Source: Phymorhynchus buccinoides (lineage: Eukaryota > Mollusca > Gastropoda > Neogastropoda > Raphitomidae). Taken from it: a DNA stretch of 64,000 nucleotides. Position 1 is the stretch's first letter; every line of letters starts with the position of its first letter. Below the pieces are notes generated by a model, which did not search any database, was not told the DNA's origin, and worked only from the letters and a program-made list of their open reading frames with translations. Shown in pieces: positions 4,282 through 33,154 of this stretch. The translations under genes and the position numbers were made by a program. Location of the stretch: positions 22,352,732-22,416,731 of the forward strand of contig CM065686.1 of NCBI GenBank assembly GCA_017654935.2, read 5' to 3'.

Positions 4282-5872
4282 CTACACCCCCGCCCTTCCC
4301 GGGCTCTCCAGGATGTCAATTACGCTGCGCTCCACATCCCCATCAAAACGACGCAACACCTCGGCAATTTCACTGCCCCTCATCTGCGGGAAGACGACGG
4401 CAATTTGGGCAATTTTATCGGCCGGCTGAACTTGAGTGTCGGCAATCTGGGGTGGGCTTGGTGCAGCACCACCGCCGCCGACGCTCTTACCCCCCATTGA
4501 GTTATGCTCCCCTGGCCGAGAGGTTATTCCCTTTTTCTCTGTGGCACGACAAAGAGTTGCTGAAGATGAAATCGTTTCTGATGGTCCCTGAGAAAGCAAC
4601 CCACCAATATCTATGTCTGGCAGACTGTCAGAGTCTGATCCGTCATGGCCGCGGTATCTCTTGCATACATCGGCTTTTTCATCATTCCCAGGTTTTATGC
4701 CAGAGTTAACGTCCTCGAGTTCTAAAACAGACTTAACCTCTGACCTACTGTTTGGAACATGAACGTCATCGATAGGGAATAAGCTTGACGTAGACGACTT
4801 CTCGGCTACAGATTTGTTTCTAACGACTTTATCATTCCACAAAGTTTGATGAGCAGATCTGACAGCAGTCGAATGTTCTTCACCCTCCAGTGCACTGCTG
4901 CTGACTGACAGTCCGCCGACCGTAGAAGAGACAGACATCTCCTTCACATCATCTATGTTGGAACGGCACAGCAGCGGAGGTGAAAACGACTCAGTGGGGT
5001 TTACTGGATGAGCATGTTTTTGTAGCCTAGAAGACAAGCCTTCATTAATAGATGGTTGATTTGAGGAAGCTGAACGAGTAGGAGAAGAAAAGTGATGAAT
5101 GTGCTCCACACCTTCACGATGCTTCGACGAAATGCTAGATGCAGACGCCACATTTCCTTCTTGGTCTTGTGGCCGGGGCTCAATTGGGTTGGATGTCGTC
5201 GAGCCTCCCCCACTTTCCTTCCTCCCTTTGCAATCTCCTCCCCTCATGGCCCAGTCAGATTTGACCTCTGGACACACAGCAGCGTTTCTCTCTGTTGCAA
5301 CAGCCACAGCCGCGGGATGGCTGCCTCCCTTCCTCCCACAGCCTTTGGAGGGGGTTTTGTTTGGAGAGACTTGCTGTCCAAATTTGTCCCCTGTCCTCTT
5401 CATCAAATAGACGCGACCCCGCGGGGAGCCGCTGAGGGTGGTGAGGGGCACGGGGGGACTGGCCCGACCGACCGTCTCCCCCTTACCAACCTTCTCCACC
5501 CCCCTGCCACCTACTGACCCGTTTTCTTTGTTGACATCCTGACACTGCTGCTGCTGACGCCTGAGAGAAAGTGGAGGGACTAAGGGAGGCAATTCGTCAT
5601 ACTCTTCGCAAAGTGTAGTAGGGGAAGAGTGGCTGCTCTTGAACAGCTGGGCCAGTTCTTGGGTTTCCAGTTGCTGCTCAAACTGGGGAGGGCTCCTCCG
5701 TTGGGGCAGGGCAGATTCTGGAGTGTTATTATCATCATCGTCGTCGTTGTCGCTTAGGACGAGCACAGGACCATCAGACTTGCTGTCATTCGCGGAGCTC
5801 GGTTTGATGCGTGGTGCCGACATTGATGTCATTTCCGCGATGACCAGGCCATCAAACTCCCCTCTCTCTGCC
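4282..5872 (-). CDS. MUS81: Last exon of the MUS81-like gene: SIM-like motif, disordered linker, CUE domain
   Basis: This 530-codon exon opens at the acceptor TTGTCATTTTCAG and closes at the stop codon at 4282-4284. Its first base completes the arginine codon left open by the 11660 donor, so the join is in phase. Near its start GPVLVLSDNDDDDD (about 5728-5766) has the hydrophobic-core-plus-acidic layout of a SUMO-interaction motif. A long Ser/Pro/Gly-rich region without clear domains follows. The last 45 residues (about 4303-4428) read as a CUE/UBA-like three-helix domain: KIAQIAVVFPQM, then EVLRRFDGDVERSVIDIL, with the FP and the DVE...IDIL signature. CUE domains usually bind ubiquitin. A separate CUE-protein gene is the alternative, but no initiator in a good context precedes the acceptor, and the phase match argues for one gene. 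Confidence 0.8.
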
Positions 5873-8800: not shown

Positions 8801-11800
8801 GAGTGTGCACGGAATAACAAACTATTAGTGTCGATGTACAGGGCACGCACGCATTAACATGCACACACAAACACAGACATGAGACTTATGCTAGTTTATT
8901 GTTTTCATCCTAAGAGCACCCAGTCTGTGCGCCCAAGAGAAGGCTGCCAGGGTGACTGGAGGCGCCCACGAGCTGGTGTTGGAGCGGCCTGAGAAGAGGC
9001 ACTGGTGTTGGAGCGGCCTGAGAAGAGGAGGCATTCTGCCGAGTCAAATGCCCGGAACAAACGAGCGAGACTACGAGGTCGTCGGCTCAAATCAAGAACC
9101 TAGCGTGCAAATTGCTCCGCGAAAGAACTGAGTATTTTTTGTGTGTTTGTGCAGTGTTGTGCGTGTTGCCCTTAGGTTTTTGCTGCTGTTAATATTCTTT
9201 GATATATGTATGATTGTGTGAGTGATTGAGTGTAAATAAATTGTTGTTAATATTTCAAATTGGCTTTGTTTATAATGTTTGTGGAGAGACTGAATAACGC
9301 GAGAGCATGTACTTCTGAATGAGTTGGATGTTTTGATTTCTGTCTTAACTTTCCGTTTGTGTGTGAATTTCGTTCGTGACAATAGCTCCCCCACCTTCTG
9401 GAAGTTCTGTGCTTGTAACTTCCTCTAATCTGTCACTCTCTTTGACTCTGCCTTTTCCCTTTGCTTACTCTCATCTACTATCTTTCTGCCTTACCGGTCC
9501 ATTCTCCTGCCTTTTTTCACGAAACTTTCAAAAACATTTCCTCCAGCCGAAGTCAGACTTGCTGGGCCTAACTATTTCTTAGGCGCATAACGGCAGCATG
9601 ACGCATCTACGCTCATAATAGACAGGAAACTGTCTGAGTGATTGAAGAAGAAGAAATTAATTCAAAAAACAAAACAAAACAATACAGGTAAGCCTGCTGT
9701 AGGACGATATTTTTTCCCCAGAGTGAGACCTTATGACTTCTGAAAATTATAGTAACAAAATCCAAATTAAATTAAAAAATTGGGGGTGCGCCTTATAAGG
9801 TGGGCTTTAAGAGTCCAAAAAATATGGTAATACAGTGGAACCTCCCTTATAAGACTCCCTCCCACATAAGACCTACTTCTCTGACATTGCCCTTCTTTTA
9901 AGTACAGACAAACCTCTATTCTAAGACTTCCAAAATGTCTGGAAAAATCGGTCGTATGACGGAGGTTTTCACTGGCAGCCGTAGAAAGAAAAAGTTCAGC
10001 ACAGTTCATACTCTCTTCTTCATGCACACATACAATGACATATTAAAACTGGATTTGGGTCTTTCCAACTCCATAGGATTGTGCAATCGATGTATTACAG
10101 TTTCACTTTGCTGACTTCTGTTAATCACCTCCACTCTCGTCCAAAGTCAGTGGTTTTCTTTTTCAAAGTCAGTGGTTTTCGTGCTTTTCCTACGCTTTCC
10201 GCCATCTTTTCTACAACAAGGGAAGCGACTCCGCTTTCAGGCCCTTGACCGTGGTTGTTTCCCTTTGCTCGAAGTCTATGCAGACGACAACAACGGTCGT
10301 AAAAACCAACAAAATGGCGGTCGTAAGTCGCGTTTTAGAGGAAGTCGTTTAAGAGAGGTCGTTTACATAGTAAAATGCATCCGTGCCAACAAATCCGGTC
10401 TCAAATGAGAGGTGGTCGCTTAACAGAGGGTCGTAAAATAGGGGTTTGCCTGTATTACAATTACCTCCATTATAAGACCTCATTTTGGATGATTTTTGAA
10501 GGTCTTTTAAGGGAGGTTCCACTGTACTTTCTGACTAAATTACTAGTCATATTGTAAGATGTGCAGGGACCTCAGTTTGGGAAAAAAAGTATCGCCTTAT
10601 AGTCCGTTAAAATACGTTATTCTTATACTAAAGGGAAGTTGTTGTACCCTGGTTTAGACTCCAGGGATCATCCCAACAGCCGAAACACTTGAACACTATG
10701 GTACAAATGCACCAGCTAGGGATGAGAATATTATGCGTGTGACCGTTTTTTGATCACCCCACCATGTGGGCAGCCACACTCCGACATCAGAGGATTTTGA
10801 ACACTAATAATGTTATGCTAGGAGCTTGTCATGGCTAAAGGCAATCCCGGCATAATTATGCAGAGCATAAACAACATTTTTATGTAGCCTTGGTGTTCTA
10901 GCCTATGTCAATTGGTCTGACCCAGTCTTAAGTCAAGGCGGATACTATTGGCCACCGCAACTAGGGTTATTAACTCCCTTGACAGTGAAGAGTTAATCCC
11001 TTGTTGGTCAGCATCCAAAAGGGCATTCACTCTTGCAAAAGGCAGCGATTTAGTGGCCTCCTCCTCCAAAATCAGAATGCGTCGGCTGAATGCAGCGAGG
11101 AGACCAGTGGAAAAAAAAGACACATACGTACCCATTGTGGCCTTACGTGGCCTTACGGAGCGGGAACGCAGAAGAAGCGGCCTCAAATAGGGTTATTGAC
11201 AAGAGTTACGCTCTTGTTTGGTCAGTACTCAAGCATCTACCAAGGGCATTCACTCTTGCAAAAGGCGGTCGTTGCAGTGGCCAATAGGGATTCTTCTTCT
11301 TCTGCGTTCGCAGGCCATAATGGGCAAGGTACGTATGTGTCCGGTTTTTAGTTTTCACTGGTCTCCCCGCTGCGTACAGCTGACACATTCCGATTTCGGA
11401 GCTCAAATGAAAAAAATTATTTGGAAGATTATTTTTGAAAAAAGGCAGGAGAATGGGCCAATAAGTCAGATAGATAGTAGATGATAGAAAGCAAAGGGAA
11501 AAGGCAGAATCAAAGAGAGTGACAGATTAGAGGAAGCTACAAGCACAGAACTTCCAGAAGCTGGGGGAACTATTTTTACAAAAAATATTTTGGTGAAAAT
11601 ATCGCATCCCCATGGGGAGCCAATAGGGATAAATGTAGACCCCCTGACCAAAAGCCGACCTGTCTTTCAGCTGCGCTGTGGTGCGGGCCAGATGTCGGAC
11701 CGTGTCCAGCATGGAGTCCAGGGACACCACCTCCAGGGAGGGGTGCTGCTTGAGGTCACCCAGCACACGCTGCACACACAGTATGAGACTGAGAGAGCAA

Positions 11801-13522: not shown

Positions 13523-13572
<50 letters not shown>

Positions 13573-16500
13573 ACTGCTTCACCAAGATTGGTCGAATCCA
13601 ATAGCTTAAGATATAAAGAGACCAGAACACAGTTTTGCATGTGCGCATGCACGAACACACATATGTACAGACTCTAAGCACACTAACAAACATGCACACA
13701 CACTCAGAGAAAGAGATTCAAAGAGAGAGTGACTGACAGAAAGAGAGATAAAACACACACACACACACTGAAAGAGAAACACACAGGCAAAATTAACAAG
13801 AGGCAAAGCCTTCAAGGCTCACTCGAACAGGAACATGTGGGACAACAACAAAGAAAGATTGAGGGGGGTGTCTAAAGTACAAGATTGCCAATAAAATTTT
13901 AAAGTACAAATGAAACTATCGTTAATGGATACAACTAAAAAAAAAAAAAAAAAAAAAAAGTGCCTGTGCCGAGAATCGGACCCGGAACCATTGGCATGAC
14001 AGACAGACTATCGTGGCTTTCAGTGTTGATGAGTTTCTTAACTCATGTTGCCTGTTGAATACTCTCTAACCCACTAATCTTTCAGTGTGTGTGTGTGTGT
14101 GTGTGTGTTTTATCTCTCTTTCTGTCAGTCACTCTCTCTTTGAATCTCTTTCTCTGAGTGTGTGTGTGTGTTTGTTAGTGTGCTTAGAGTCTGTACATAT
14201 GTGTGTTCGTGCATGCGCACATGCAAAACTGTGTTCCGGTCTCTTTATATCTTAAGCTATTGGATTCGACCAATCTTGGTGAAGCAGTGGGGGGGGCAGT
14301 GGGGTGATGCCTCGTGCCTCCATATGTGGAGCTGGACGCCCCCTCCCCCTCCACGAGTCTCTCCCCATGGGGATACCGGGGGGATCTTTCGTAAAAATAG
14401 TTCCCCCACCTTCTGGAAGTCCTGTGCTTGGTCTGTCAGAAAGATAGTAGATGACAGAAAGCAAAGAATTAAAGTTTGGAGATTAGACCATGGACGCAAC
14501 ACACACACAACCGAACTATCATACTATAGACTCACACGAGTGAGCCAAAAAATGCCAACGTTAATGTTTGGAGATTAGACCACGGACACAACACACACAT
14601 CCGAACAACTATCATACAATAGACTCACATGAGTGAGCCAAAAATCACCTGCACTCATGGAGATTAGACCATGGACGCAACACACACACACAACTGAACA
14701 ACTATCATACTATACTCACACGAGTGAGCCAAAAATCACCTACACTCATGGAGATTAGACCATGGACGCAACACACACACACAACTGAACAACTATCATA
14801 CTATACTCACACGAGTGAGCCAAAAATCACCTGCACTCATGGGGATTAGACCATGGACGCAACACACACACGGACACACAACCGAACAACCACCATATTA
14901 TACTCACATGAGTGAGCCAAAAAATGCCCACGTTAGTTTGGAGATTGGACCACGGACGCAACAAACACATACACAGCTATCATACTATACTTTTCTAACC
15001 GAGTTGTTCAATACTGGAATAATTTGTCAACTAACATTAAGGCTGCACCTAACATAAATATATTAAAAGAAAAAGTCCATTCCATATTTTTGCTAATTTT
15101 TTTAGCTGTAGAAAGCAAGCCACCTTGAAACAAATCAAAGTCACAAACGAGAAAGGGCGTAAAAGGGCCGCAAGGCCCATTTCTAGCCCTAATTACTACT
15201 ACTACTATAGACTCACACGAGTGAGCCAAAAATCACCTGCACTTGCTGCAAGGTAGGGTTCCCACAACGTCCCACCCCCCGACATCCATCGGCGCAGCGA
15301 ACCACAAAGCTATCCAGCTTTCCCTCGATGACGTACTGCAGAGTGCAGCCAACTCCCTTGTCTTCAAACTCTCCTTTCCGGGAGGCCATCTTGTCTATCT
15401 GACTCCAGAAACGCCCGTCTTTCAGAGAGAAGGCCACATCGTCTGAACAGAACGGAAGCAGAGAGAAACGCCTGTTTGTGCCGCAGTTAGTATTTTCACT
15501 GAAGAATTCGATGGCTTAGAGTCAAAACGGACTATCTTTAGATCGTCCATTGACTTATTATTGATGTTATTGCAAAAACTAAGAACTTTTATTAAGAAAG
15601 ACTACAAATAATATAAAATGGGGATTATGCTTTTTATATCTCTGGGACGGTATTCATGTCGAGATAGCATGAGACTTAGCATGATGCTAACTTAGAAGCT
15701 CTTCCAAAAGTCCTATTAAATCCTATAGGACATTGGAAGAGCTTCTAAGTTAGCATCATGCTAAGTCTCATGCTATCTCGACATGAATACCGTCCCTGGT
15801 CTTTTTTTTGTATGTAGTTATTAGTTTACGCAAAATATGTTCAAAAATACATCAACGGACTATCTAACGATAGTCCGTTTTGGACTATCTAAAGATAGTC
15901 CGGTTTGACTCCAAGCCATTGAAATTTATTGCAACAATAACAAAATGATACACACTTAAAGGTGGACCCTGATGGATGAGTTTTTGCAAAGAAACACGTT
16001 GAGATCTCCAGAAAGACAGCCTTTTCAAGGATCGGAACAATCACTTTGCTCTGGTTTCCTAGAAATCAAACCGTCAAAACGGCGATTCCTCCTTGGCGGA
16101 GATGCCGGAGAGAGAAGCCATTTTGAATGGGGTGGGTGGAGGCCACTCATAGTGGTTGAAGCTTTTTCTTGTTTGTAGTGCAGTTAAAAAAAAGGAGCTA
16201 TTTCCTTTGTTGTGAGCAAAACTCATAAAATAAATAAAATAAAAAGGCTTGTATTGTGGACATTTCGTGCAAACGATTTGGTCTAAACTCAGTCGGCCAT
16301 TAGAAAAGAATTTGACACTGAAAGAATTTAACATCCAGCACCTCCGCCAAGGAGGAATCGCTGATTTGACAGTTTGATTTCTCGGAAACCCGAGCAAAGT
16401 GAGTGTTGCGATCTATGTAAAGGGTGTTTTCCTGGTGATCTCGACGTGTTTCTTGCAAAAACTCATCCGTCAGGGTGCCCCTTTAAGGAAATTAATTTAC

Positions 16501-22500: not shown

Positions 22501-25500
22501 GTGTCATTTCCAAATTACTCATACCTAAATTCCAAACACAATTGCTTTAACACAACACACACTGCATACAGCTTAAACGCTCAAGATGAATGCGTTAAAC
22601 TATTCATATTGTCATGAAAAAACATGAGATTCTCAGGTAGCCAAAAAGGGAGGAAAAAAGCGGGGGTCTGGGGCCTGGTGCAGGCTACATCAGCGAACGG
22701 ATAACTTCTGCTTTCAGTTTTGCTAACCGCAGAGTAACGATAAACAGAGCAGTCTTGGCTGCCCCCAAGCAGTAACCGGAAAATGTTCAATGGAGAATGA
22801 ACCGACCGAGAACAAAATATCAATCAAACTTCTCAAAGCATTTATGCTTCAACACAAAACCTAACCCTCTCCCCCCTCTTATTTTCTCAATGGATTTACC
22901 GCGATCTCAAAAATGACCCCTGGGGCCATCAAAAAGGAGGAAATCCTCCCAATCGGAGGAAAAATATCATCTCTGATTATTTTAACCCTTTCACTGCCAA
23001 TGTCGCATTTTAGCACCACAGTGGTTTAATACCCATGTCACTAAAAGGCATCAAATCAGTGCATGTTATCCAAAGACCCTGTTTTGTTAAATTTTGGAGG
23101 TAAGGATAGGCCTAATGTTATATATGTCACAGAGGAATTCGCCATATTGCTATTTTCTCTACCCAGTTAAGCTTAATGGTATTTTGGGCTGAAAAATGGC
23201 TGGCAGCGAAAGGGTTAAAAAACAACCTCACCCATCCTGTCCTTTGTCGTTGCTGTACATGGCATCAGTGAGCACATGCTCAACAGGAGGCCGCTTGACG
23301 CTTGACGCCGGAACACTGGATGATGACTTGGGGGAAGACAACGATGATGTCGATGAAGATGAATTTGAAACTTCATTGGACCAGGCGGATGGGACTTTAG
23401 CCGCCTGTTTTTTTGCTGATAAGAAATATAAATAGGGTAGTTAAAGAAATAAAAAGAATTACTCTTTTTTTTTCTTAGCCTGAAAAACAACATAAATGAA
23501 AAGGTGATCAGTAAAAATGAAATCTTTTTTAGGAATAAAACTTTGAACGTGGCAAAAACAAATAGTAGTGATACAATATATAATTATAACATTGGGTCTT
23601 TTTAGTAAGTTCCAGCGCTGCCTACCCCCTGTTGCAGTTTCCAGGGACAAACTGCTTAAAAACCAGGGACAGAGACTTATTTCCAGGGACAAACTGCTTA
23701 AAAACCAGGGACAGACTTATTTATTTCCAGGGACAAACTGCTTAAAAACCAGGGACAGAGACTTATTTATTTCCAGGGACAAACTGCTTAAAAACCAGGG
23801 ACAGAGACTTATTTCCAGGGACAAACTGCTTAAAAACCAGGGACAGACTTATTTATTTCCAGGGACAAACTGCTTAAAAACCAGGGACAGAGACTTATTT
23901 ATTTCCAGGGACAAACTGCTTAAAAACCAGGGACAGAGACTTATTTATTTCCAGGGACAAACTGCTTAAAAACCAGGGACACTTATTTATTTCCAGGGAC
24001 AAACTGCTTAAAAACCAGGGACAGAGACTTATTTATTTCCAGGGACAAACATTGCAATGTCTGGCGTCATGAAATATATTTCATGATGTAGCAACATTTC
24101 TGCAACTGGATATTTTGGATAGTATTTTTGCTGCTTTTCGGTGCCAACTTACTTAACTATATTCAAGATGCTTTGGTGTTCAGTAACCTACGCATAGCAT
24201 GCCTGTTAAGAACAATTCAAAGTGCCTGTTGTTTTGGGTGTTCCTGTGTTCAAAAGTAAGGTCAACTAAGACAAGTGATTCCTCTACAAAATTTTGATTC
24301 TGCTCAATTTCCAGGGACGCTACACAGAAAAGTGGATTCCAGGGCCTCTTTTAACTGTTTCCAGGGACAAATACCCCTTAGTAGGGATGGTAGGCAGTCA
24401 TGAGAAACCCAACAATTTTTTTTAGTATCTTCTTCTTCGTTCGCTCAGTTTCCTGTCAATTATGAGCGCAGATGCGTCATGCTGCCGTTATGCGCCTAAC
24501 TAAGAAATAGCTAGTCCGACTTTGGCTGGAGGAAATGTTTTTGAAAGTTTCGTGAAAAAAGGCAGGAGAATGGGCCGGTAAGGCTGTTAGGCAGATAGTA
24601 GATGACAGTTAGCAAAGGGAAAAGGCAGAGTCAAAGAGAGTGACAGATTGGAGGAAGTTACAAGCACAGAACTTCCAGAAGGTGGGGGAACTATTTATAC
24701 AAAAGACCCCCCCCCCCGGTATCCCCACGGGGGGGGGGGGGGGGTTAGAATGAAAAACAACAGCAAACAAACAAAAAGTGGTGATAAACTAAAATGAAAC
24801 GAAAAATTGTTTCAGGAACAAAAAAATGATCCGCAAACAAATTTACCAAAAATCTTTGTGTAAGTAAATGATAACCTAAACTGACTTCAAAACGATACTG
24901 TAACCTTCAGCAACCATAAACTCACCTGGTAAATAAAATTATCTTTGAATATTTGTTTGTAACGTTTTACTAAAACCAACACGGGCAAAGAAAAACACAA
25001 CTTGCCCTCATGCTTCACACACACACACACAATTTTTTTTTAAATTGGGTAGGCGCTGTGATTGCGGCGACGCGCTCTCCCGGGGAGAGCAGCCCGAATT
25101 TCACAGAGATACGTCTCTGACTAGAATATATACCAAACACACAGTAATCGTAAAATGAGGTTCCAGTGAACCAAGTCTCCTAGCTGTATGATGAGACGCG
25201 TTCTCCAGAGTTTTGTTCTTTGAGTTTCGCTAGAGTTCCCTACAGCCCCGTTGGAGGATTCAGTGCAACACAAGAGAAAGAGAGATAACGAGACAGACAG
25301 TTACAATGATGGACAGAGACAGTTTGAATCCGATAAGCCTTTGCCTTTGTTTTACAATATGGCATAATAATAATAATAATAATAATAATGCATATTTTTA
25401 TAACGCCTATTCTCAGTAAGGGCTCTAAACACTTTACAAAACATATTTACATTGATTAAAAAGAAATCATTAAATAATAAATATTAAACAAGAAAACAAC

Positions 25501-28500
25501 CAACGCGAAGTAGCCTTGCACACCCACACCCACAACACACCACCACACACTGTCAGGACACACACGCACACGCGATTGCACACACACACAGACACACGCA
25601 CGCCCACCCAAACGCATGAACACACACTGTTTTCAAGATTCCCAGAGAGAGACTTCCGGGATAGAACAACCAAGTTCAAAACGCCCGAAATTGCTTGTGG
25701 TTCTTTTTTTTTTTTGGGGGGGGGGGGGATTTTAAAAACCCCACCTAAAGTTCAGTTTCTGGTCAAATTAAAAAAACTGAAATCAGTGTGAAACTGAAAG
25801 AGTTGCACCAGTGTCCGAATTTACTGATCTTTGAATTTTTTTTTGCTATTGTTCTAAGGGACACGAGAGAGGATCCAATAACAGGCGTGTGGTGGAACAT
25901 CACAGTAGACAATACAAGGATTTTCTCATAACCCATCGACGATATATTACCTTGCGATGGACTTGCATCAGTAGCCTTCCGTTTCCTTGATTTAGCTGGA
26001 CCAGTGGCAGACGACGATGATGATGACGATGATGCAGTGGATGATGAAGTTGTACTACCTGGAATGCCCAGTGAAATACATTAAAAAACAAACACCAAAA
26101 AAACCCAAGAATTTATCTAGTTGCATTTCATAAACTCACTTTGCAAATGATTTGTTGTATATATAGATATCCCAGGGCTCCCAATTGTCCCGCAAAACAA
26201 GGGGTCCCATGAACTCCTTCACTTACAGTATAGATGGTCCTAGAGGTGGGATAGAGGGTCCCATTGGCATTGCGAATGCTAAAAAGAGTTTCAAGTGCAT
26301 CCCTAGGACCCCCTGCATTCTTTTAGATGGTCCTTTAGAGTGTTTCATAGACCCCCAAATGGGGGTCCCAAGGAAATTATTTCTATTGTGAGACAAAACA
26401 TACAGGAACAGAAATATATGTACCGGTATACAGTTTTATTTGTGAGAGTATGTTTTCACATAACAGATTCTTGTTCAGAGTTTTAAAAAACATCTAGTAT
26501 GCTACCGGTAAATATGTTAGCCTCTCATCACTTCAGACAATTTGCAAGGTTGAATTTGCAAGCTTTGATAAGACCTTGCATAGTCTGTAGTTATTCAGAT
26601 CCTGTGTGAGGAGTGTGTGTGTGTGTGTTCCTGCTTCTAGTTTTTCATATTTTTGGTCTTTAATTAACATTGTCATGATTGACATTATTCGTGTTGTTGT
26701 TAGTGTTGTCATTGTTGTTTTGTAATAAAAAAAAACCCACCCCACACCCTCTCTTCATTGACTAATAATATTAATTATATAATACTGCTTTTAAATATAT
26801 ACTTCTCTCAATTAAGCTTGACCAACCAATTAGGATATTATTACTATTATTTCTGTTTGTAACTCTAACCGAGCCCTGTCCTGATATTGATGAACTATTT
26901 ATTTATCTTTATTTTACTTTATTTGCTCAAATTGTGTTACATGTATATATGTTGATTGGATGAAAGATTGAGTGAAAGCAGGAATTGTGGAATGTAAGAA
27001 GAGATGGAATAAAAACAATATTGAATACCAAAAAAAAAAAAATATGTTAGCCTCATTCCAATTCCAAAATCCATAAATATACCACAATTTGTAGAATCTC
27101 TGCACCCCATTGCATTGTGTGTATTCATAAGCTTGACATTTGATTTTCACATTGTTGTAATAATGTGTTAGGCTGAACATCACCTTTCAGGCGTGCTTTC
27201 TCTCTCTGTGCATAATAATCACACCACTCTTGACACTTTCACCGCCAGACATCTTTGAGCCAAAATTTTCCATTAAACTTACTTGGCTACAGAAAAGATT
27301 TCGTCTGCAATATTGTGGGATTTCTCTGTGACACATTTAGAATAGGGTCAATCCTTACTGCCCAAATTTAGGAACACAATACAATTGAATAATAGACCCT
27401 GATTTCAAGAGTTTTAATCATTATGGTGCAAAAATGCCACATTGGCGGTGAAAGGGTTAACCCCCACTCTCCCACTCTAAATCTAGACATTATTACCTTG
27501 TCTTCTTCAAGGAAAGACCACCCCCTGTATCCCCACAGGGGAGTTTTTACATCATCATAGAGCTTAATTTCTTGTGGGAGAACATTTTCATCAGGCAGAC
27601 CATTGCCAGAACCTGCATCAAACTGCCTGAATTCAGGTTTCAGGTATGTACCCACATGCACTCCTGAATAACAGCCCTTGACCACACAAACGTCGGCATT
27701 ACCTGCAGTGACGGGGGGTCGTGGCCCAGACTCCTCTCTTTCTCCTGAACAGCGGCCCTTGACCACAAACGTCGGCATTACCTGCAGTGACGGGGGGTCG
27801 TGGCCCAGACTCCTCTCTCTCCTGAACAGCAGCCCTTGACCACACAAACACTGGTGTAGCATTCTCAAATAGGATTTGTTCTCAACATGTCTGCGCATGT
27901 GCGAAATCGATCATGACATACCCATACCACCAAATTTTATTTTTTATGTATTCAACACTAAATTGACCCTAAACCTATCCCTAACTCATTGCACATGCGC
28001 AGACGATTTGAGAACAAATCCTATTTGAGAACACCACACCGGCATCACCTGCAGTGACGGGGTCGCGGCCCAGACTCCTCTCCCTCAGCGCCAGGGCAGC
28101 GTCCACGCCCAGGGGAAGCAGGTGGTAGACGCTGGCCTTGTGCAGGGAGCGTCGCTTCACCAGGTCCCTCTTGATGAGCACCTCCAGCCGCCACCACGCC
28201 TGGCAGAAACCTGTGTGGGAAACAACAAACCTGTGTGGGAAACAGCAAACCTGTGTGGGTGGGAAACAGCAAACCTGTGTGGGAAACAGCAAACCTGTGG
28301 GAAACAGCAAACCTGTGTGGGGAAACAGCAAACCTGTGGGAAACAGCAAACCTGTGTGGGAAACAGCAAACCTGTGTGGGAAACAGCAAACCTGTGTGGG
28401 AAAACAGCAAACCTGTGTGGGAAACAGCAAACCTGTGGGGGAAAACAGCAAACCTGTGTGGGAAAACAGCAAACCTGTGTGGGAAAACAGCAAACCTGTG

Positions 28501-31500
28501 TGGGAAACAACAAACCTGTGTGGGAAAACAAACCTGTGTGGGGAAAACAGCAAACCTGTGTGGGAAAACAGCAAACCTGTGTGGGAAACAGCAAACCTGT
28601 GTGGGGAAACAGCAAACCTGTGTGGGAAAACAGCAAACCTGTGTGGGAAACAGCAAACCTGTGGGGGAAAACAGCAAACCTGTGTGGGAAAACAGCAAAC
28701 CTGTGGGGGGAAACAGCAAACCTGTGTGGGAAAACAGCAAACCTGTGTGGGAAAACAGCAAACCTGTGTGGGAAAACAGCAAACCTGTGTGGGAAACAAC
28801 ATGGCAAGAACATAAAATACAGTCTGGTGGGTGAAAACTCAAAGGACTGAGATTGCATTTTGAGATATCATAGTTTTAACCCCTTGACTGCCATAATATA
28901 ACGTTTCACATACACACTTGATGATATCGTTAGACTAGGACGACATCACTGATGATGTCATGAGATGAAGGGAAATAACTCTGGGGTGCTGCTTTTTGCT
29001 TTAACACAGTCTTCCTTCCTTCCAGTAAGTGACCACAGTCAAACTTGACTATTCTGTCACTGTAGAAATTGGGGATCTGCGGAAGAGCGCCTTAATACAG
29101 GGGGAGGGGTAGAGGTGGAGGGAATTGGGGAGGGGGGGGAGCATTCCCTGGCTATAAAACAATCATTTCATTCCCTGGCTATAAAACAATCATTTCATTC
29201 CCTGGCTATAAAACAATCATTTCATTCCCATGGCAATAAAACAATCATTCCATTCCTGGCAATAAAACAATCATTCCATTCCCAGGCTATAAAACAATCA
29301 TTCCATTCCCAGGCTATAAAACAAGAGCATAAAACAATCATTTCATTCCCTGGCTATAAAACAATCATTCCATTCCCTGGCTATAAAACAATCATTCCAT
29401 TCCCAGGCTATAAAACAATCATTTCATTCCCAGGCTATAAAACAATCACAATCATTCCCTGGCTATAAAACAATCATTCCATTCCCAGGCTATAAAACAA
29501 TCATTTCATTCCCAGGCTATAAAACAATCATTTCATTCCCAGGCTATAAAACAATCATTCCATTCCCTGGCTATAAAACAATCATTCCATTCCCTGGCTA
29601 TAAAACAATCATTTCATTCCCAGGCTATAAAACAATCATTTCATTCCCAGGCTATAAAACAATCATTTCATTCCCTGGCTATAAAACAATCATTCCATTC
29701 CCAGGCTATAAAACAATCACTTCATTCCCAGGCTATAAAACAATCATTTTATTCCCTGGCTATAAAACAATCATTTCATTCATGCACGATCATCTCTGAA
29801 CATTTGCATACACAAATACTTGAAACAACTACTCTGGAGAGCTAGAACATCTATACAAAAAAAGTATGTATACAGCCTTAACTCAATGAAGATTTAGAAA
29901 ATTCTAGCTCAGATTGATTTTTTATCACTTCACATTATTAGAACATAAAACAAGATTGCCAGCTATATTATAACTGCTAGTATGTACTCCCAGTCCCCCC
30001 GTGGGGATACCGGGGGATCTTTTGTACAAATAGTCCCCCCACCTTCTGGAAGTTCTGTGCTTGTAACTTCCTCTAATCTGTCACTCTCTTTGACTCTGCC
30101 ATTCTCCTGCCTTTTTTCACGAAACACTTTAAAAAACATTCCCCCCAGCCGAAGTCAGACTTGCTGGGCCTATTTCTTAGTTAGGAGCATAACGGCAGCA
30201 TGGTGCATCTGCACTCAAAATCAACAGGAAACTGTCTGAGCGATCGAAGAAGAAGAAGAAGTACTCCCAGTGAGACATCTGAATGAAAGAGAAGCGCTCT
30301 GATTTTTAAATAATCACGATTAACTCCTTGACTGCCAGATAAAATTAAAGAAAAAAGCATTGGGCAAATCATGCCATGAAAAAGACAACTGATAGAGCCA
30401 ATCTGGCAAAATGGTCTGGGGATATAACTCTCTTGACTGTGTTAGAGCAAAAACCAGCATATCAGAGTTATCCCTCTTCATCTGATGTTGTCATCACTAC
30501 CTAGACATCAGTGATTATATCAAGTCAGTATGTGATACGTTGCATGGCAGTCAAGGCATTAAATCATTAAAATGAAAGTTAATAACAAATTTTTTTTATG
30601 TCAAACTTCTCATAAAATGACACAACTTAGTCACATTTTAATTTTTCAGACACAGCAAAATATCTTTTTAGATAAATAATTATATGAGGCTGCCCAGAAA
30701 TAAACTTTTTAGCCCCCAAGAAACCCTCAAACTGAAAGTGAAAATTCACATACAAGCATACAAATTTACAATATCATACACACCACACATCATACAGAGC
30801 TTCAGATTGTCAGCGGGCCCGGGTCATTGACAATCATTCCATTCCCTGGCTATAAATGGTGATTTGACCCCTCATTTTGTGCAGCAAGGGGTCATGTGAC
30901 CCATGAAGTCTGGAATCAAGCTTAAGTGTAATACTACAGCAACACATAATTGTCCCATTATTTTGGAAACTGACCCATCAGTTTCTGTAATCAGGGGTCA
31001 TGTGACCCATGAAGTCTGGAATCAAGCTTAAGTGTAATACTACAGCAACACATAATTGGCCCATTATTTTGGAAACTGACCCATCAGTTTCTGTATGTAA
31101 TCAGAGGTCATGTGACCCATGAATTTTGAAAACAATCTGAAGCTCTGATCCCCACACACCTGTCTGCTGCCGCCAGTTCAGTCAGGTTGAGCAGCGCGGC
31201 CAGAATAGCGCCAGCGGAACTGACGAAGCGACCCGGGGCCGGGCGGTCAGAACTATACACCTGGCTGTTGGCGTAGCTCTCCAGACGACGCACAGTCTCT
31301 GGACCTATCTGTCAAGCACAAAACCACAGCTCCATGGGTGCTCCTGGGAAATATCAAAAATCATGCAAGGGGGCGGCCCCGGCGGAGTGCAGGGGCAGCG
31401 CACACACACACATTTACTGCTTTTTTTCACCCCTCTAGACTAGTACAAGTGCTACAGTCCTTTGAATATAGCAAATGCGTATATAGGCCCTTTATATTGT

Positions 31501-31508
31501 ACAAGAGT

Positions 31509-31588
<80 letters not shown>

Positions 31589-33154
31589 AACTCGTTGCTT
31601 CTCAAATTCTCATAATCCGGCGACGCCGGTTTGGCAGTGTATTTTTACCTCTATGAGATTTTTACCTCTAGCTGCGTAGCCAATCAGAATCGTTTGTTTG
31701 TCCGCCATTGTGAATCATTACGAAACTAAGTGCATGGCTTTGTACATCGATTTCTCTGCAAATATGTAGATTTACACTCTCCTGCTCTATTTCTTGGTTC
31801 TTTCCGTTGTTTCAACTTCGTTAGGGATAGGGTTAGGGTTAGGGATAGGGTTAGGGTTAGTAGTAATCACGGGAGATAAGTAACTGTTCTAATGCGCATG
31901 CGCAGAGGTAAATATTTCATACGACTACTTATTCATCGTGACACCGGCTCTAGGCAATTTAAAAATCCTGCAGTTCAGGACATGCTGCAAGAAGGAGCAT
32001 CCATGCAGCTCTTAAGACTAAACAATCATAAAATAATATGCATTACCTTATTTTCTAATATTAATAAAATCAACGGTCACTGATTGCCACCTGCATTTTT
32101 CAGGTTAACCAGTTTAATGTCAGAGTTGGACTTTGATGACTCATCTTTTGAAGCATCAGAGAACTGTTGACACTGTTTATAGATATAGATATCTTAATCT
32201 ATAAACATGTTTTTTTAAAAATTGGTAACAGTTTTATAGCATATGATATATGCTCAGTGATATAGATCTAGAATAATAATGTAAAACTTTTAGCATTTAA
32301 GCAAGGAACTACACACAGTACATGGTATAAAAAAAAGAGTCTAAGATCATGCATTAGCAGCATAATTATGCATGTTAATTTTGACCCATATACCGTTGGA
32401 TAGCTCTTGGTTTCGCCTTTCCAATGGTATGTGCTATTAATAGATTTGATGACGTTGGAGGTCACGAAGCGAGTTGAAAGGCACACAGTGTGCTTCACTT
32501 GTCTGTGCAGGGCGCAGAGTCAGGCTCGTCGGCGGCTAAATTAAACTCATGTTTAACACTCTCAGGATCCTTATGTTTTATTTCACACAAAATAGCAAAC
32601 TCGAAGTTGAGGTCTTAAACGTTTTATTGATATATTTTTTTCTCATAAAAAATGTATCTGCATATGAGAATTTGTACAGCAAAGTCGGGCAAATTTGTCA
32701 GTTTTCCCTTGCTTTTCTGGCCTAGCATGGCCTGTGGTCCCATCTAATGTTACATTCATTATGCGCCAACTTTGACATGCAAATAATTATTTGGTTGGTA
32801 TAATTTCGTTGCACACGTTTGATTAATGTTCTTTCAGTTATGTTGTATTTATGTCATGTTGTTGTACCTAACCTGAATCTCTCTTTTGGAGATATTAAAG
32901 TATACTTGAACTTGAACTAGTTTATTAAATATTAGTGATATCAGTATCAAACACTGATCAAATTAATGTCCTCATGCATCTGGTGAAATACTTACAGATT
33001 CCAGACGAACGGCTTGTTTGGCCGTGTTGACATTCTTCTCAGAAAGTTCCAAGGAGACAATGGCCTTGGAGGTGCACTCTGCTGCAGACTTCAGATAGTG
33101 CGTTCCCCTCTGCATCCGCTCGTGGGCTTGCAACCCGCGCATGAACATGTAACG
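4282..33154 (-). CDS. MUS81: MUS81-like structure-specific endonuclease with SIM/CUE C-terminal tail (multi-exon gene model)
   Basis: My model joins ten exons on the minus strand: 33154-32996, 31308-31160, 28199-28049, 26058-25951, 23415-23232, 20152-20095, 17521-17389, 15442-15237, 11769-11660 and 5872-4282. Every junction agrees in reading phase except 31160 to 28199, where one short exon (length 3n+1) must be missing. MUS81, paired with an EME partner, cuts branched DNA such as nicked Holliday junctions and stalled forks in the nucleus. Seen here are helix-hairpin-helix-like sequence, a winged helix, a basic patch (KSRKRK), the first catalytic acidic strand (VILLIDIQE), GDYAWLW, and ERKRADD with DGRFWSQ. 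The tandem helix-hairpin-helix domain that normally ends MUS81 was not found; instead there is a SIM-like motif and a CUE domain. The start codon and first exon were not found. Length without them is about 950 residues, against roughly 550 in vertebrate MUS81. The nuclease assignment is firm; the tail needs transcript support. Confidence 0.85.
5728..5766 (-). other. SUMO-interaction-like motif
   Basis: Codes VLVLSDNDDDDD: four aliphatic residues followed at once by a serine and an acidic run, the usual layout of a SIM. Binding is inferred from the motif only. Confidence 0.55.
6052..6245. repeat. Three imperfect tandem copies of a ~65-bp AT-rich unit
   Basis: The motif ...ACTTCAACACTTCTGAGTAACTGAACATTTTTGTGATCAATACATTTTG... 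occurs three times in a row with small indels. It lies in the intron upstream of the CUE exon. Confidence 0.7.
6246..7511. other. Intron sequence, nothing assignable
   Basis: AT-rich intron of the MUS81-like gene. There is a short C run near 6987 and no supported exon or complete element. Confidence 0.5.
7512..7905. repeat. Tandem duplication of a ~165-bp segment
   Basis: 7512-7675 and 7741-7905 share CAGTAATCTCTGCAACAAAT, the TATCTGACTGCTTTGATCG segment and ATCCTGCTAACTTTAACCC, with scattered differences. About 65 bp of unrelated sequence separates them. Confidence 0.7.
7906..8065. repeat. Diverged copy of the 14.5-kb array unit
   Basis: GGCCACGGACGCAACACACAC, an ACTATAGACTCAC segment and GTGAGCCAAAAAAC match in order the tandem units at 14475-14990. 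Confidence 0.5.
8066..9375. other. Intron sequence, nothing assignable
   Basis: No supported gene. A duplication of about 30 bp (TGTTGGAGCGGCCTGAGAAG twice) lies at about 8978-9027. Confidence 0.5.
9385..9655 (+). repeat. SINE family A copy
   Basis: Runs from AGCTCCCCCACCTTCTGG to a GAAGAAGAAGAAA tail. The 5' GC-rich head is missing, as expected from 5' truncation. Confidence 0.75.
9690..10620. mobile_element. Tigger/pogo-like deletion derivative flanked by TA-MITE pieces
   Basis: The inner element (9831-10526) starts TA-CAGTGGAACCTCCCTTATAA and ends with the inverse, the pattern of Tigger/pogo elements with a TA target. Pieces of the 2454-2627 MITE family lie on both sides (about 9700-9830 and 10550-10618). 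Only non-coding remnants are inside. Related copies are at 33.19, 51.19, 56.66 and 58.08 kb. Confidence 0.7.
10640..10800 (-). repeat. SINE family C copy
   Basis: Inverse orientation of the repeat at 570-738, with GTTGTTG as the remains of its AAC tail at the left end. Confidence 0.7.
10943..11285. mobile_element. MITE with CTATTGGCCACTGCAA-type ends, interrupted by a SINE B fragment
   Basis: Left end ACTATTGGCCACCGCAACTA and right end TTGCAGTGGCCAATAG are inverse to each other. The same element, without the interruption, lies at 46285-46500. A SINE B end in antisense sits at about 11063-11184, between GTGGCCTC and CGGCCTC, likely a short target duplication. Confidence 0.65.
11288..11605 (-). 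repeat. SINE family B copy
   Basis: Shares its head half with SINE A (GGCAGGAGAATGGGCC, GTGACAGATTAGAGGAAG) but has a different tail half containing GGCCATAATGGGCAA and TTCCGATTTCGGAGCTC. The (CTT)n at its left is the inverse of a (GAA)n tail. Confidence 0.7.
11660..11769 (-). CDS. MUS81: MUS81-like exon: end of the ERCC4 nuclease fold
   Basis: The acceptor is ACTGTGTGTGCAG and the donor ACAG/GTCGGC is weak but valid. It codes RVLGDLKQHPSLEVV...MLDTVRHLARTTAQLKD. This fits the stretch of MUS81 that follows the ERCC4 motif, where the family has a variable helix pair before the C-terminal domain. It leaves two bases, completed by the first base of the 5872 exon. The intron next to its acceptor is duplicated at 12907-12948. 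Confidence 0.75.
11822..11962 (+). repeat. SINE family C copy with 14-bp target duplication and an empty site in cis
   Basis: Flanked by CATCTGGAGGTCCT (11808-11821) and CATCTGGGGGTCCT (11963-11976). A duplicated segment at 12907-12970 carries CATCTGGGGGTCCT once and no SINE, so it preserves the empty target. Confidence 0.8.
11977..12187. mobile_element. Element E (GGATGCAAC ends)
   Basis: Starts CATGGATGCAACTGG and ends GGTTGCATCC, short inverted ends. Copies are at 12949-13155 and, split by a LINE fragment, at 17570-18310. Non-coding. Confidence 0.6.
12188..12548. repeat. Minisatellite, 13/14-bp units
   Basis: About 26 alternating units of CGTATTTCATCGGG and CGTATTCATCGGG, with rare CATCAGG variants. 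Because 13 and 14 are not multiples of three, several frames stay open by chance. It directly follows the right end of element E. Confidence 0.9.
12907..13155. repeat. Duplicate of 11779-12187 lacking the SINE C
   Basis: Begins AGTATGAGACTGAGAGAG, as does the intron flank of the 11769 exon, then continues straight into element E. It is a segmental duplication that predates, or escaped, the SINE insertion. Confidence 0.75.
13285..14467. repeat. 1.1-kb foldback: ~380-420-bp inverted arms built on SINE A/B sequence
   Basis: The arms are about 13345-13768 and 14087-14467. Both hold, in opposite order, SINE sequence (GATCCCCC...CCCATGGGGA), the CTCGTGGAGG segment, TTGGTCGAATCC, and an AC/GT-rich stretch. 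The spacer of about 320 bp has a poly-A run. The left arm carries a poly-C run of about 50 bp (13526-13573) that the right arm lacks. Confidence 0.75.
14475..14990. repeat. Tandem array of ~90-bp units that include a copy of an exon donor
   Basis: About six units of GGAGATTAGACCATGGACG ... ACTCACACGAGTGAGCC. Several also carry CAAAAATCACCTGCACT, which is the inverse of the 5' splice site of the 15237-15442 exon. Confidence 0.75.
15237..15442 (-). CDS. MUS81: MUS81-like exon: ERCC4 nuclease, DD...DGRFWSQ part
   Basis: The acceptor is TTCTGTTCAG and the donor GCAG/GTGATT. The split codon gives the first D of ERKRADD; the exon then reads DVAFSLKDGRFWSQIDKMA, the helix that carries conserved D, G and R residues in MUS81/XPF nucleases, then VGCTLQYVIEGK, matching the RRVYLVEE strand of vertebrate MUS81. 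It is followed by PTLQQVQ, like the STLLQAVTN segment. Ends in phase 0 and joins 11769 in frame. Confidence 0.9.
15511..15919. mobile_element. Short TIR element carrying a perfect 63-bp hairpin
   Basis: Outer ends ATGGCTTAGAGTCAAAACGG and the inverse at 15887-15919 match over about 33 bp with two or three differences. Inside lies the perfect inverted repeat at 15644-15796. No coding sequence is present. Confidence 0.7.
15644..15796. repeat. Perfect inverted repeat, 63-bp arms, 27-bp loop
   Basis: 15644-15706 and 15734-15796 are exact reverse complements. The pairing resumes inside the loop (GTCCTAT with ATAGGAC), so the stem could reach about 70 bp. Confidence 0.95.
15956..16486. mobile_element. 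TTAA-flanked element with ~150-bp inverted ends (Kolobok-like)
   Basis: Starts TTAAAGGTGGACCCTGATGG and ends CAGGGTGCCCCTTTAA. The inverted similarity runs about 150 bp inward, through CTCCTTGGCGGAG. A TTAA target and long ends fit Kolobok-type MITEs; that is an inference. Confidence 0.65.
16698..16930. mobile_element. TTAA-flanked MITE, family A
   Basis: Complete copy: TTAACCCTTTCATCACCA at the left and GGCGTTGAAAGGGTTAA at the right. Confidence 0.8.
17389..17521 (-). CDS. MUS81: MUS81-like exon: ERCC4 nuclease, GD and ERK motifs
   Basis: The acceptor is CCTGTGTTCAG; the donor GCGG/GTGGGT is the only one that keeps the frame. It codes LCEMIEQTGAVYRTRKLPCG, then DYAWLWRCDG and FLLERKRA. This aligns with the vertebrate stretch that contains GDFVWVA and VERKR. 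The acidic residue of GD and the E and K of ERK are the metal-binding and catalytic positions of the XPF/MUS81 nuclease family, and all are present, so an active enzyme is expected. Ends with one base of an aspartate codon completed in the next exon. Confidence 0.92.
17570..18310 (+). repeat. Element E copy split by a LINE 3' fragment
   Basis: Left part 17570-17640 (CATGGATGCAACTGG, then a GC-rich piece) and right part about 18145-18310 (CCTGAAGCTGAAGAAAAAGC to GATTGCATCC) are separated by the LINE fragment at about 17645-18143. Confidence 0.6.
17645..18143 (+). pseudogene. Non-LTR retrotransposon, C-terminal end of ORF2 and 3' UTR
   Basis: The plus frame up to the stop at 17947-17949 reads LCYKSIHKAAPSYLC, then RYKLSTVGRRSFAVSG and NKLPLSLRQ, then FKANLKTHLF. 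This is the typical C-terminus of CR1/L2-type LINE polymerases, downstream of the reverse transcriptase. It is followed by a 3' UTR ending AGCGCCGTATAAATACTGTA with a GTT tail. The element is truncated 5', as LINE copies commonly are, and has no catalytic domain. Confidence 0.75.
18470..18685 (+). repeat. SINE family G with tRNA-like head and poly-A tail
   Basis: The head has a good pol III A box (TGGCAGAGTGG) and B box (GGGTTCGAATCCC), resembling a Leu/Ser-type tRNA. After that come TCTAGTTCGACAGGAAAATC, the GATGGGGACTTAAAGC body and an A run at about 18680. It is not a functional tRNA gene because the arms do not close around a proper anticodon loop. Confidence 0.75.
18690..19778. other. 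Intron sequence, nothing assignable
   Basis: No exon or complete element recognised. Confidence 0.45.
19779..20030 (-). pseudogene. Non-LTR retrotransposon ORF2 C-terminal fragment
   Basis: The minus frame reads RNSDLKILTQYSRTNIRKKL, then FSNRVTKFWNTLP and TQFKNLIDKY before the stop. This is the usual CR1/Jockey-type ORF2 C-terminal pattern (F..RV...WN.LP......FK..LD). No catalytic part is present; it is an old 5'-truncated insertion in an intron. Confidence 0.7.
20095..20152 (-). CDS. MUS81: MUS81-like 58-bp exon: first strand of the nuclease
   Basis: The acceptor is CTGTTTTGTTTGCAG and the donor GAA/GTAAGTGA is near-consensus. It codes VILLIDIQECGGNRAGLAE, which aligns with VLLCVDIGETRGGGHRPELL of vertebrate MUS81; the D and E are the first acidic residues of the nuclease. 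It takes one base from the previous exon and ends in phase 0, so the 23232 and 17521 exons both fit. Confidence 0.88.
20200..20600 (-). repeat. SINE family B copy, near full length
   Basis: Extends beyond the usual head with AGAGACTCGTGGAGG and GTATGGAGGCACGAGG, also seen in the arms of the 13.3-14.5 kb foldback. Confidence 0.7.
20680..21150 (+). repeat. SINE family A: head fragment and a longer copy
   Basis: A head fragment (CCCTGTAGGGATACCAGG) at 20683-20735 is followed by a CTT-rich join to other sequence, then a SINE A copy at 20889-21147 ending in GAAGAAGAAGC. Confidence 0.65.
21308..22049. mobile_element. TTAA MITE family A interrupted by another transposon
   Basis: Outer TTAA ends are at 21308-21311 and 22046-22049. 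The element is split by the insertion at 21473-21965. Its right TTAA is also the left TTAA of the next element (family B, to 22406). Confidence 0.8.
21473..21965. mobile_element. 493-bp element with CAGGGTTCCCACA ends and 6-bp target duplication
   Basis: Begins CAGGGTTCCCACAG and ends TGTGGGAACCCTG, flanked by CCAATA on both sides (21467-21472, 21966-21971). The CAGGG ends look hAT-like, but hAT elements usually make 8-bp duplications. The interior repeats CCAGGACTTTTC-type motifs and codes nothing. Confidence 0.75.
22046..22406. mobile_element. TTAA MITE family B with a 5'-truncated SINE A inside
   Basis: Ends TTAAACTCTTCCCTGCCA and GGCAGTGAAGAGGTTAA. A SINE A fragment (22090-22221) lies between two copies of AACAGCAATAT. 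Family B also occurs at 30320-30562 and, partly, at 28.88 kb. Confidence 0.7.
22407..22981. other. Intron sequence, nothing assignable
   Basis: No supported coding region or complete repeat. Confidence 0.45.
22982..23218. mobile_element. TTAA MITE family A beside an exon donor
   Basis: Complete copy. On the gene strand its end lies 13 bp inside the intron that follows the 23232-23415 exon. Confidence 0.8.
23232..23415 (-). CDS. MUS81: MUS81-like exon: Ser-rich linker before the nuclease
   Basis: The acceptor is TATTTCTTATCAG and the donor GATGG/GTGAGG. In the phase set by its neighbours it codes KKQAAKVPSAWSNEV, a Ser/Pro-rich run, and KRPPVEHMLTDAMYSNDKGQ. One other frame is open but hits a stop in the next exon, so the Ser-rich frame is preferred. 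No fold is expected; this is the flexible linker between winged helix and nuclease. Confidence 0.72.
23640..24055. repeat. Minisatellite with ~45-57-bp units
   Basis: About eight units of TTTCCAGGGACAAACTGC, then TTAAAAACCAGGGACAGAGA, then CTTATTTA. Length variants drop GAGA or the second TTTA. The open plus frame across it is an effect of the repeat. Confidence 0.9.
24427..24745 (-). repeat. SINE family A copy
   Basis: Full-length style copy: CTT run at left, GC-rich head at right followed by a long G run (24730-24744). Confidence 0.75.
24746..25029. other. Intron sequence, nothing assignable
   Basis: AT-rich, without recognisable features. Confidence 0.4.
25030..25140 (+). repeat. SINE family D copy
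   Basis: AAATTGGGTAGGCGCTG ... GGAGAGCAGCCCGAATTTCA ... TCTCTGACTAGAATATATACC, a close match to the 3075 copy. Confidence 0.65.
25365..25640. repeat. LINE-type 3' end (antisense) and AC-rich microsatellite
   Basis: An AAT run followed by GCATATTTTTATAACGCC... TCTAAACACTTTACA at 25368-25440 is the inverse of an L2/CR1-like 3' end. ACACAC-rich sequence follows at 25520-25630. Confidence 0.5.
25951..26058 (-). CDS. MUS81: MUS81-like exon: poly-Ser linker with basic patch
   Basis: The acceptor is GGCATTCCAG and the donor CAAG/GTAATA. It codes a serine run followed by ATGPAKSRKRKATDASPSQ; KSRKRK looks like a nuclear localisation signal. Taking one base from the winged-helix exon (28049) gives VTAG-STTSSS in frame, and it leaves one base that the 23415 exon completes. 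Confidence 0.7.
26100..26829. other. Intron sequence, nothing assignable
   Basis: Contains several short GGGTCCC/GGGACCC words (26200-26380) but no clear element, and no supported exon. Confidence 0.4.
26830..27042 (+). repeat. Possible LINE/SINE 3' end with poly-A
   Basis: AT-rich sequence with GGAATAAAAACAATATTGAATACC followed by 12 A; a polyadenylated retroelement end is likely, family unknown. Confidence 0.4.
27230..27460. mobile_element. TTAA MITE family A, left end lost
   Basis: Right end GGCGGTGAAAGGGTTAA is intact. The left end begins within ACTTTCACCGCCA without TTAA. Confidence 0.75.
27497..27663 (-). other. Optional or pseudo exon in the MUS81-like gene
   Basis: Bordered by GGGCTGTTATTCAG and GACAAG/GTAATA and open in the phase left by the winged-helix exon (VHVGTYLKPEFRQFDAGS..., ending WGYRGWSFLEEDK). 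Its 167 bp would break the frame into the next exon, whereas skipping it keeps frame. Its 3' third (ACTCCCCTGTGGGGATAC...) closely matches the head of SINE A, so it may be partly SINE-derived. I treat it as doubtful. Confidence 0.35.
27703..27821 (-). repeat. Two extra copies of the winged-helix exon's 3' end, each with AG and GT borders
   Basis: 27782-27821 and 27703-27744 repeat GAGGAGTCTGGGCC...CGTCACTGCAG, followed by GTAATG and preceded by a TGTTCAG acceptor-like run. They look like 40- and 42-bp micro-exons. The 42-bp one would add 14 residues in frame. Confidence 0.65.
28049..28199 (-). CDS. MUS81: MUS81-like exon: winged-helix domain
   Basis: The acceptor is TTTCTGCCAG and the donor GCAG/GTGATG. 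It codes AWWRLEVLIKRDLVKRR, then HKASVYHLLPLGVDAALAL. This matches the second half of the MUS81 winged helix (in vertebrates, a LIQ/LLH helix, a LV.R/K strand, YSLTPEGLELA). The domain is known to bind DNA. The first half of the winged helix should be in a missing exon of length 3n+1 between 28205 and 31160; I could not find it. A 20-bp minisatellite abuts the acceptor. Confidence 0.85.
28205..28800. repeat. Minisatellite of ~20-bp units abutting an acceptor
   Basis: About 29 units of AAACCTGTGTGGGAAACAGC with 1-4 bp indels. On the gene strand the last unit supplies the bases just upstream of the acceptor (CACAGGTTTCTGCCAG). Long ORFs here are artefacts of the repeat. Confidence 0.92.
28876..29070. 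mobile_element. Truncated TTAA MITE family B
   Basis: Begins TTAACCCCTTGACTGCCA, like the family B ends; the interior resembles 22.2 and 30.4 kb; no right end found. Confidence 0.5.
29140..29785. repeat. Minisatellite of 27-bp units
   Basis: About 24 units of ATTCCCTGGCTATAAAAC plus AATCATTTC, with CCAGG/CCTGG and TTTC/TTCC variants. One stray unit sits at 30829-30856, about 1 kb away. Confidence 0.92.
29995..30260 (+). repeat. SINE family A copy with 11-bp target duplication
   Basis: Flanked by GTACTCCCAGT at 29984-29994 and 30261-30271. It ends in a (GAA)n tail and lacks part of its middle. Confidence 0.85.
30320..30562. mobile_element. TTAA MITE family B, complete
   Basis: Ends TTAACTCCTTGACTGCCA and TGGCAGTCAAGGCATTAA. 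The ends are close in plan to family A but the interior differs. Confidence 0.75.
30563..30884. other. Intron sequence, nothing assignable
   Basis: AT-rich, no exon found although the missing winged-helix exon should lie in this intron or nearby. Confidence 0.4.
30885..31125. repeat. Two and a half tandem copies of a ~105-bp unit
   Basis: The unit runs from GGGGTCATGTGACCCATGAA through GCTTAAGTGTAATACTACAG to CATCAGTTTCTGTAATCAG. Confidence 0.8.
31160..31308 (-). CDS. MUS81: MUS81-like exon: helix-hairpin-helix end and start of winged helix
   Basis: The acceptor is TTTTGTGCTTGACAG and the donor ACAG/GTGTGT. It codes IGPETVRRLESYANSQ, the GIG-type hairpin and following helix of an N-terminal helix-hairpin-helix domain, then a basic/proline linker and SSAGAILAALLNLTELAAA, which fits the first helix of the MUS81 winged helix (SGARVILLVLYREHL in vertebrates). 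Phase 0 at the start agrees with the 32996 exon. It leaves two bases that no found exon accepts directly. Confidence 0.8.
31506..31585. repeat. (GT)n microsatellite
   Basis: About 75 bp of GT. Confidence 0.9.
31590..32819. other. Intron with repeat scraps and a short telomere-like tract
   Basis: GC-rich element E-related pieces (CCGGCGACGCCGG) lie at 31.6 kb. A run of TTAGGG and GATAGGG units is at 31822-31862. The rest is AT-rich and unassigned. Confidence 0.5.
32820..32930 (+). repeat. LINE-like 3' end with ACTTGA tail
   Basis: CTCTCTTTTGGAGATATTAAAG followed by TATACTTGAACTTGAACT is a retroelement 3'-end pattern. Confidence 0.45.
32996..33154 (-). CDS. MUS81: MUS81-like exon: N-terminal helix-hairpin-helix region
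   Basis: The acceptor is TTAAATTTTCAG and the donor GAATCT/GTAAGT is near-consensus. It codes RYMFMRGLQAHERMQRG, then SKAIVSLELSEKNVNTAKQA. This fits the weakly conserved N-terminus of MUS81 (LF..WL.E.R......K.KAL.SL....), followed in the next exon by the IGP hairpin. Both borders are phase 0. It cannot be the first exon; the initiating methionine lies further upstream, in repeat-filled sequence where I could not identify it. Confidence 0.75.

Follow-up and report, generated by a model that had tools for sequence, protein, structure and literature searches.

The window analysed here is a 64,000-nucleotide stretch of contig CM065686.1 from the neogastropod Phymorhynchus buccinoides. Its minus strand carries a gene so far resolved into 11 exons running from 37736 to 4282. 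The product is a MUS81-type nuclease without the C-terminal tandem helix-hairpin-helix domain, (HhH)2, of MUS81. In its place is a tail with motifs resembling SUMO-interacting motifs (SIMs) and a C-terminal CUE domain. Sequence comparison identifies the gene as a distinct animal paralogue of MUS81, named MUS81-CUE here, and not as a modified MUS81. This anatomy and paralogy can be regarded as firm.

Exon 1 (37707-37736) holds the start codon, encodes MAGKRKYFDQ, and is followed by gt. It was placed by tblastn with the Nucella protein P0001 (8 of 9 residues) and by the sequence itself, and lies upstream of the range 4282-33154 that a sequence-only reading of the window had assigned to the gene. 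The other ten exons fall inside that range and have AG/GT borders, exon Ec being taken as 28199-28049 in this check. Exon Ea (32996-33154) encodes the first half of the N-terminal helix-hairpin-helix (HhH), is 93% identical to Nucella over 54 amino acids, and was set by its splice borders. Exon Eb (31160-31308), defined by splice borders and orthologue comparison, adds the second half and the start of a predicted winged helix. Exon Ec (28049-28210, with the orthologous start at 28210) encodes the second half of the winged helix (GFCQAWWRLEVLIKRDLV...). Two linker exons follow: Ed (25951-26058), with in-phase borders and a match to the Babylonia linker, and Ee (23232-23415), which ends TDAMYSNDKGQDG and was placed by splice borders and orthologue comparison.

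The nuclease is spread over four exons, all supported by their borders. Exon Ef (20095-20152) begins the domain with the catalytic D..E (VILLIDIQECGG), in agreement with orthologues and the family motif count. Exon Eg (17389-17521) runs from GDYAW to ERKRA, as seen in the sequence and in orthologues. Exon Eh (15237-15442) holds DDVAFSLKDGRFWSQ and a family-specific cysteine loop, CADGCRGVGRCGNP, recognized in the sequence and the family alignment. Exon Ei (11660-11769) ends the domain, matches orthologues, and aligns with the end of the MUS81 nuclease. The motifs named by the sequence-only reading were located accordingly, GDYAWLW in Eg and DGRFWSQ in Eh, with ERKRA|DD formed at the Eg-Eh join. 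The terminal exon, Ej (4282-5872), contains a disordered tail, the SIM-like motifs, the CUE domain, and the stop codon, and is 44% identical to Nucella (E 5.9e-58). A single open frame of 846 codons extends from Ec through the Ej stop. The proposed in-phase join of Ei (phase 2) to Ej is borne out by the borders and by an identical protein junction in the nearest orthologues. In line with that reading, no (HhH)2 exon was found between 11660 and 5872: tblastn with human (HhH)2 gave no credible match, the best in the window being E 0.17 over 15 amino acids at 46861 and the only one between Ei and Ej being E 1.8 on the other strand.

Against the Pfam domain ERCC4 (PF02732), the joined nuclease exons score 48.5 bits (E 1.1e-12; the query join was without two residues, VA). 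The catalytic motifs D..E.GG, GD(Y).W, and ERKRxD are present in 33, 34, and 34 of 35 sequences, respectively, the G of GD being A in three. The loop C-x3-C-x3to5-C is present in 33 of 35, e.g., P0001 328-341, and is absent from MUS81 in the nuclease alignment. The ERKRxD miss is a record without that part; one isoform and one fragment make up the remaining misses in the motif and loop counts. The nuclease is predicted to be catalytically intact, and the loop may, as a guess, bind metal. A PDB search with the window nuclease as the sole query gave no match at E<=0.01, and profiles were used instead.

Relatives were collected by searching proteins with the nuclease region as query (11 records) and by two profile searches (34 in total, isoforms and fragments included). 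Mollusc members are from Nucella, Babylonia, Littorina, Haliotis, Solemya, Mytilus, Mercenaria, Mya, Mizuhopecten, Saccostrea, Pinctada, and Liolophura. The family also includes a brachiopod, an annelid, a nemertean, lancelets, and cnidarians (Lingula, Owenia, Tubulanus, Branchiostoma, Nematostella, Actinostola, Exaiptasia, and Hydractinia), together with four unnamed metagenome records. The three protein searches scored only 574, 7999, and 8000 candidates and have no bearing on absence from vertebrates, arthropods, or nematodes. Among 23 members, Pfam finds ERCC4 in 23, HHH_8 in 21, and CUE in 17 at E<=0.1. The N-terminal HhH is of the pol-beta-like type, as in MUS81. In profile comparison, the family HhH, winged helix, and nuclease align to the human MUS81 domains in the same order, and the C-terminal end has no match in human MUS81. 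EME1-MUS81_C (PF21292), the (HhH)2 model, matches none of the 23 members, in contrast to human MUS81 and the MUS81 of the same genome, which served as positive controls; zebrafish MUS81 also has (HhH)2. Structure models predict a MUS81-like nuclease, a long tail of low model confidence that is taken as disordered, and three helices at the C-terminus, with no other fold separating them from the nuclease; the VIA-align comparison barely probed the winged helix and C-terminal domain.

An ordinary MUS81, which the sequence-only reading had suggested looking for, is present in the same 2.1-Gb genome on another contig (C9, 47.944-47.976 Mb, L011-L014). Its exons match human and zebrafish MUS81 one by one from the N-terminal HhH through the nuclease to (HhH)2; the winged helix is mostly unmatched, and part of the stretch reads N. 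Contig C1 encodes a C-terminus resembling that of EME1. A whole-genome search with PF02732 matched XPF (C10) and MUS81 (C9) and not the window gene, and one with PF21292 matched the EME1-like exon pair on C1 and not the split C9 exons. Because the window gene and the C9 (HhH)2 exons go unmatched, such a search misses exon-split genes. A six-frame Pfam search of the intron regions, with stops as X, found no HhH, winged-helix, or (HhH)2 exon, which shows only how split the domains are.

The window nuclease is closest to that of Nucella (79.8% identity). It is 41.9% identical to Nematostella and 23.5% to the MUS81 of its own genome, which is 51.2% identical to human MUS81. Identities to human MUS81 are 35.1% for Nematostella, 33.8% for lancelet, and 25.8% for the window. 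A tree of 19 family and three MUS81 nucleases, without an XPF outgroup, splits into two groups at 100/100. The C9 MUS81 falls with human and zebrafish MUS81, and the window gene with the family. Because the tree and the identities separate the family from MUS81, the duplication is placed by these sequences before the cnidarian-bilaterian split, as long as the root lies outside the family.

MUS81-CUE differs from MUS81 in its cysteine-loop insert and CUE tail, at 23.5-25.8% nuclease identity. Compared with XPF and archaeal XPF/Hef, the family has neither the helicase-like part nor the (HhH)2, and the sequence match is weaker (E 0.06). The SLX4-docking hairpin is QHFG in MUS81, is kept in the C9 copy, and is of EGIG type in the family. 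Mutations of MUS81 Q67, H68, F69, and G70 abolish SLX4 binding (PMC5344696). The simplest reading of the sequences is a paralogue that would lack QHFG-type docking and carry modifier readers itself.

The CUE domain (ADKIAQIAVVFPQMRG...VIDILES; 4300-4422, minus strand) was identified by Pfam, family C-termini, and a PDB profile search. The claim that the 5872 exon ends in a CUE-like domain holds, as CUE (PF02845) matches 20 of 21 family C-terminal pieces and the window peptide taken alone scores 22.3 bits (cut-off, 21.1). Used as a profile against the PDB, the C-terminal pieces find the CUE domains of Tollip (E 6.1e-7) and Cue2 (E 0.0019) as best relatives. These are likewise C-terminal three-helix domains; they differ in not being attached to a nuclease, and the window sequence alone does not find them. 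A putative SIM-like motif, PVLVLSDNDDDDD (5731-5769, minus strand), was read from the sequence, and its position is conserved in gastropods. The protein ends in VVDLT or VIDLT in Haliotis, Lingula, and Nematostella, and not in the window. Nematostella has ubiquitin-interacting motifs (UIMs) above the cut-off (29 bits), and Mya has one below it. The tail also contains an acidic SDSD-x-LPDI motif (~4643-4601 in the window, minus strand), whose LPD(I/L) core is found in 22 of 31 family sequences; this motif resembles the human EME1 N-terminus.

Junction binding by MUS81 complexes depends essentially on contributions from both (HhH)2 domains (PMC3834828). SLX4, with its UBZ and SIMs, recruits the nuclease in these complexes (PMC6316474, PMC8599992). 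According to the same two papers, SLX4 links the reading of ubiquitin and SUMO to a structure-specific nuclease. SLX4 would be a functional analogue of the family only, since it is a scaffold acting in trans and the likeness is drawn on function alone.

The best explanation at present is a distinct MUS81 paralogue with its own ubiquitin- and SUMO-reading tail in place of SLX4 docking, with a probability of roughly 0.55. The enzyme would cut branched DNA as MUS81 does, and its own tail would bring it to substrates in cis. The CUE domain, with the UIMs in Nematostella, would read ubiquitin, and the SIM-like motifs perhaps SUMO. Without (HhH)2, the protein might dimerize, if at all, via the nuclease domain alone, possibly with itself or with some other partner. 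Recruitment by ubiquitin is likely, if unproven. A more tentative proposal, somewhat short of an even chance, is that animals inherited from before the cnidarian-bilaterian parting a second MUS81-type nuclease, targeted through its tail by ubiquitin and SUMO and free of (HhH)2 pairing and SLX4 docking. It would be a self-contained counterpart of SLX4-MUS81-EME1 that vertebrates may have lost.

Several results weigh against this explanation. With human XPF added to the tree on a very long branch, MUS81 groups at 97/100 and the family does not fall on one side of any single branch. The window CUE scores 16.9 bits within the long exon, below the cut-off and slightly under a DMA motif; DMA scores 23.4 bits on the peptide alone, equal to or better than CUE. 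A PDB search with the window peptide alone brings up no CUE chain, and several whole family proteins score weakly or not at all for CUE. Under a strict definition, a SIM-like motif shortly past the nuclease end occurs in only 9 of 17 scorable proteins, the window included, and in none of five bivalves; 22 proteins were scanned, and the nuclease end could be placed by script in 17 and not in 5. Shuffle values were 0.006 for Nucella, 0.020 for Babylonia, 0.034 for the window (tail cut too early), and 0.106-0.23 for the others. The MUS81-like winged helix (PF21136) is matched by Pfam in 0 of 23 members. HH-suite finds a family winged helix at E 7.1e-5 and 63% probability, and the window itself is without one winged-helix exon, for which the rest of the genome gave no match either.

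The sequence-only reading had proposed a MUS81-type nuclease that lacks (HhH)2 and ends in a tail of SIM-like motifs and CUE, which stands, and an alteration of MUS81 itself in this lineage, which does not. Its suggestion of recruitment by ubiquitin and SUMO marks is a sensible guess, and partner binding may have changed as it proposed. The shared N-terminal domain order would suit an ordinary MUS81 whose C-terminus was exchanged, but this is very improbable: an ordinary MUS81 exists in the same genome, orthologues from cnidarians to lancelets and molluscs share the tail, and the window nuclease is closer to that of Nematostella than to its own MUS81, itself close to the human protein. The 6-kb intron from 11660 to 5872 and the use of a single genome leave room for the nuclease and CUE exons to be two neighbouring genes. 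That is the least credible alternative, as records from Nucella, Babylonia, Haliotis, Mytilus, lancelet, and cnidarians carry nuclease and CUE in a single protein. Less easily set aside, though still unlikely, is that family and architecture are as described and the CUE is a protein-protein or dimerization module, with a partner placing the nuclease. Binding cannot be read from sequence, and the PDB relatives include CUE domains with protein partners, such as SMARCAD1 CUE1 (E 0.097 and weaker), whose known partner is not ubiquitin. The Nematostella UIMs, the SIM-like VIDLT/VVDLT ends, and the closer relationship to Tollip and Cue2 point instead to modifier reading.

The missing exon bears on whether this copy is functional. 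About 32 residues (Nucella: ...LIPEEALRSEAAKLCDERFLP...) lie between Eb and Ec in the Nucella and Babylonia orthologues and form part of the winged helix, with a helix at residues 122-131 in the Nucella structure model. The claim that the exons join in phase holds from Ec to the Ej stop and fails between Eb and the orthologous Ec start (28210), which join out of phase with this exon missing between them. A variable number tandem repeat (VNTR; 20-21 bp unit, 28207-28798) abuts the Ec acceptor. Seven acceptors inside it give an open, in-phase join to Eb, the nearest starting the exon at 28230. Because the exon is missing and in-phase joins use only VNTR acceptors, the winged helix of this copy may be shortened, an exon may have been lost or left unassembled, or the copy may be damaged. 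A pseudogene, or mis-assembly around the lost exon, would account for the absence of these residues and the VNTR beside Ec, but is improbable. Borders and frame are intact in 11 exons, the terminal exon is stop-free over 530 codons, the nuclease is 80% identical to Nucella, in-phase acceptors are available, and the window contains no N. In the next intron, a 79-bp unit is repeated ~2.4 times in tandem (27661-27849) and by eye resembles the Ec 3' end with its donor.

The MUS81-CUE family is an ancient variant of a known nuclease type and apparently undescribed; no description of it was found in open-licence PubMed Central literature, the limit of the search. If the explanation is correct, the animal XPF/MUS81 group gains an uncharacterized catalytic member. 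The family would also offer a natural experiment showing which functions of (HhH)2 and of SLX4 as a ubiquitin/SUMO reader can move into the nuclease. The gene is testable in laboratory animals because Nematostella, Hydractinia, and lancelets carry it. Most family records are named 'uncharacterized' by NCBI, and on some the name 'Crossover junction endonuclease MUS81' denotes the wrong paralogue.

The window has several other features. A short telomere-like array of GTTAGG type lies at 31820-31860, in or near the Ea-Eb intron. A minus-strand open frame at 60591-63428 (945 amino acids) has only a sub-threshold phage-integrase SAM-like match. An open reading frame at 51589-52200, also on the minus strand, encodes a CENP-B N-terminal domain and is likely a transposase relic. 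Another at 54201-55811 on the same strand encodes reverse transcriptase and RNase H domains and is a retroelement.
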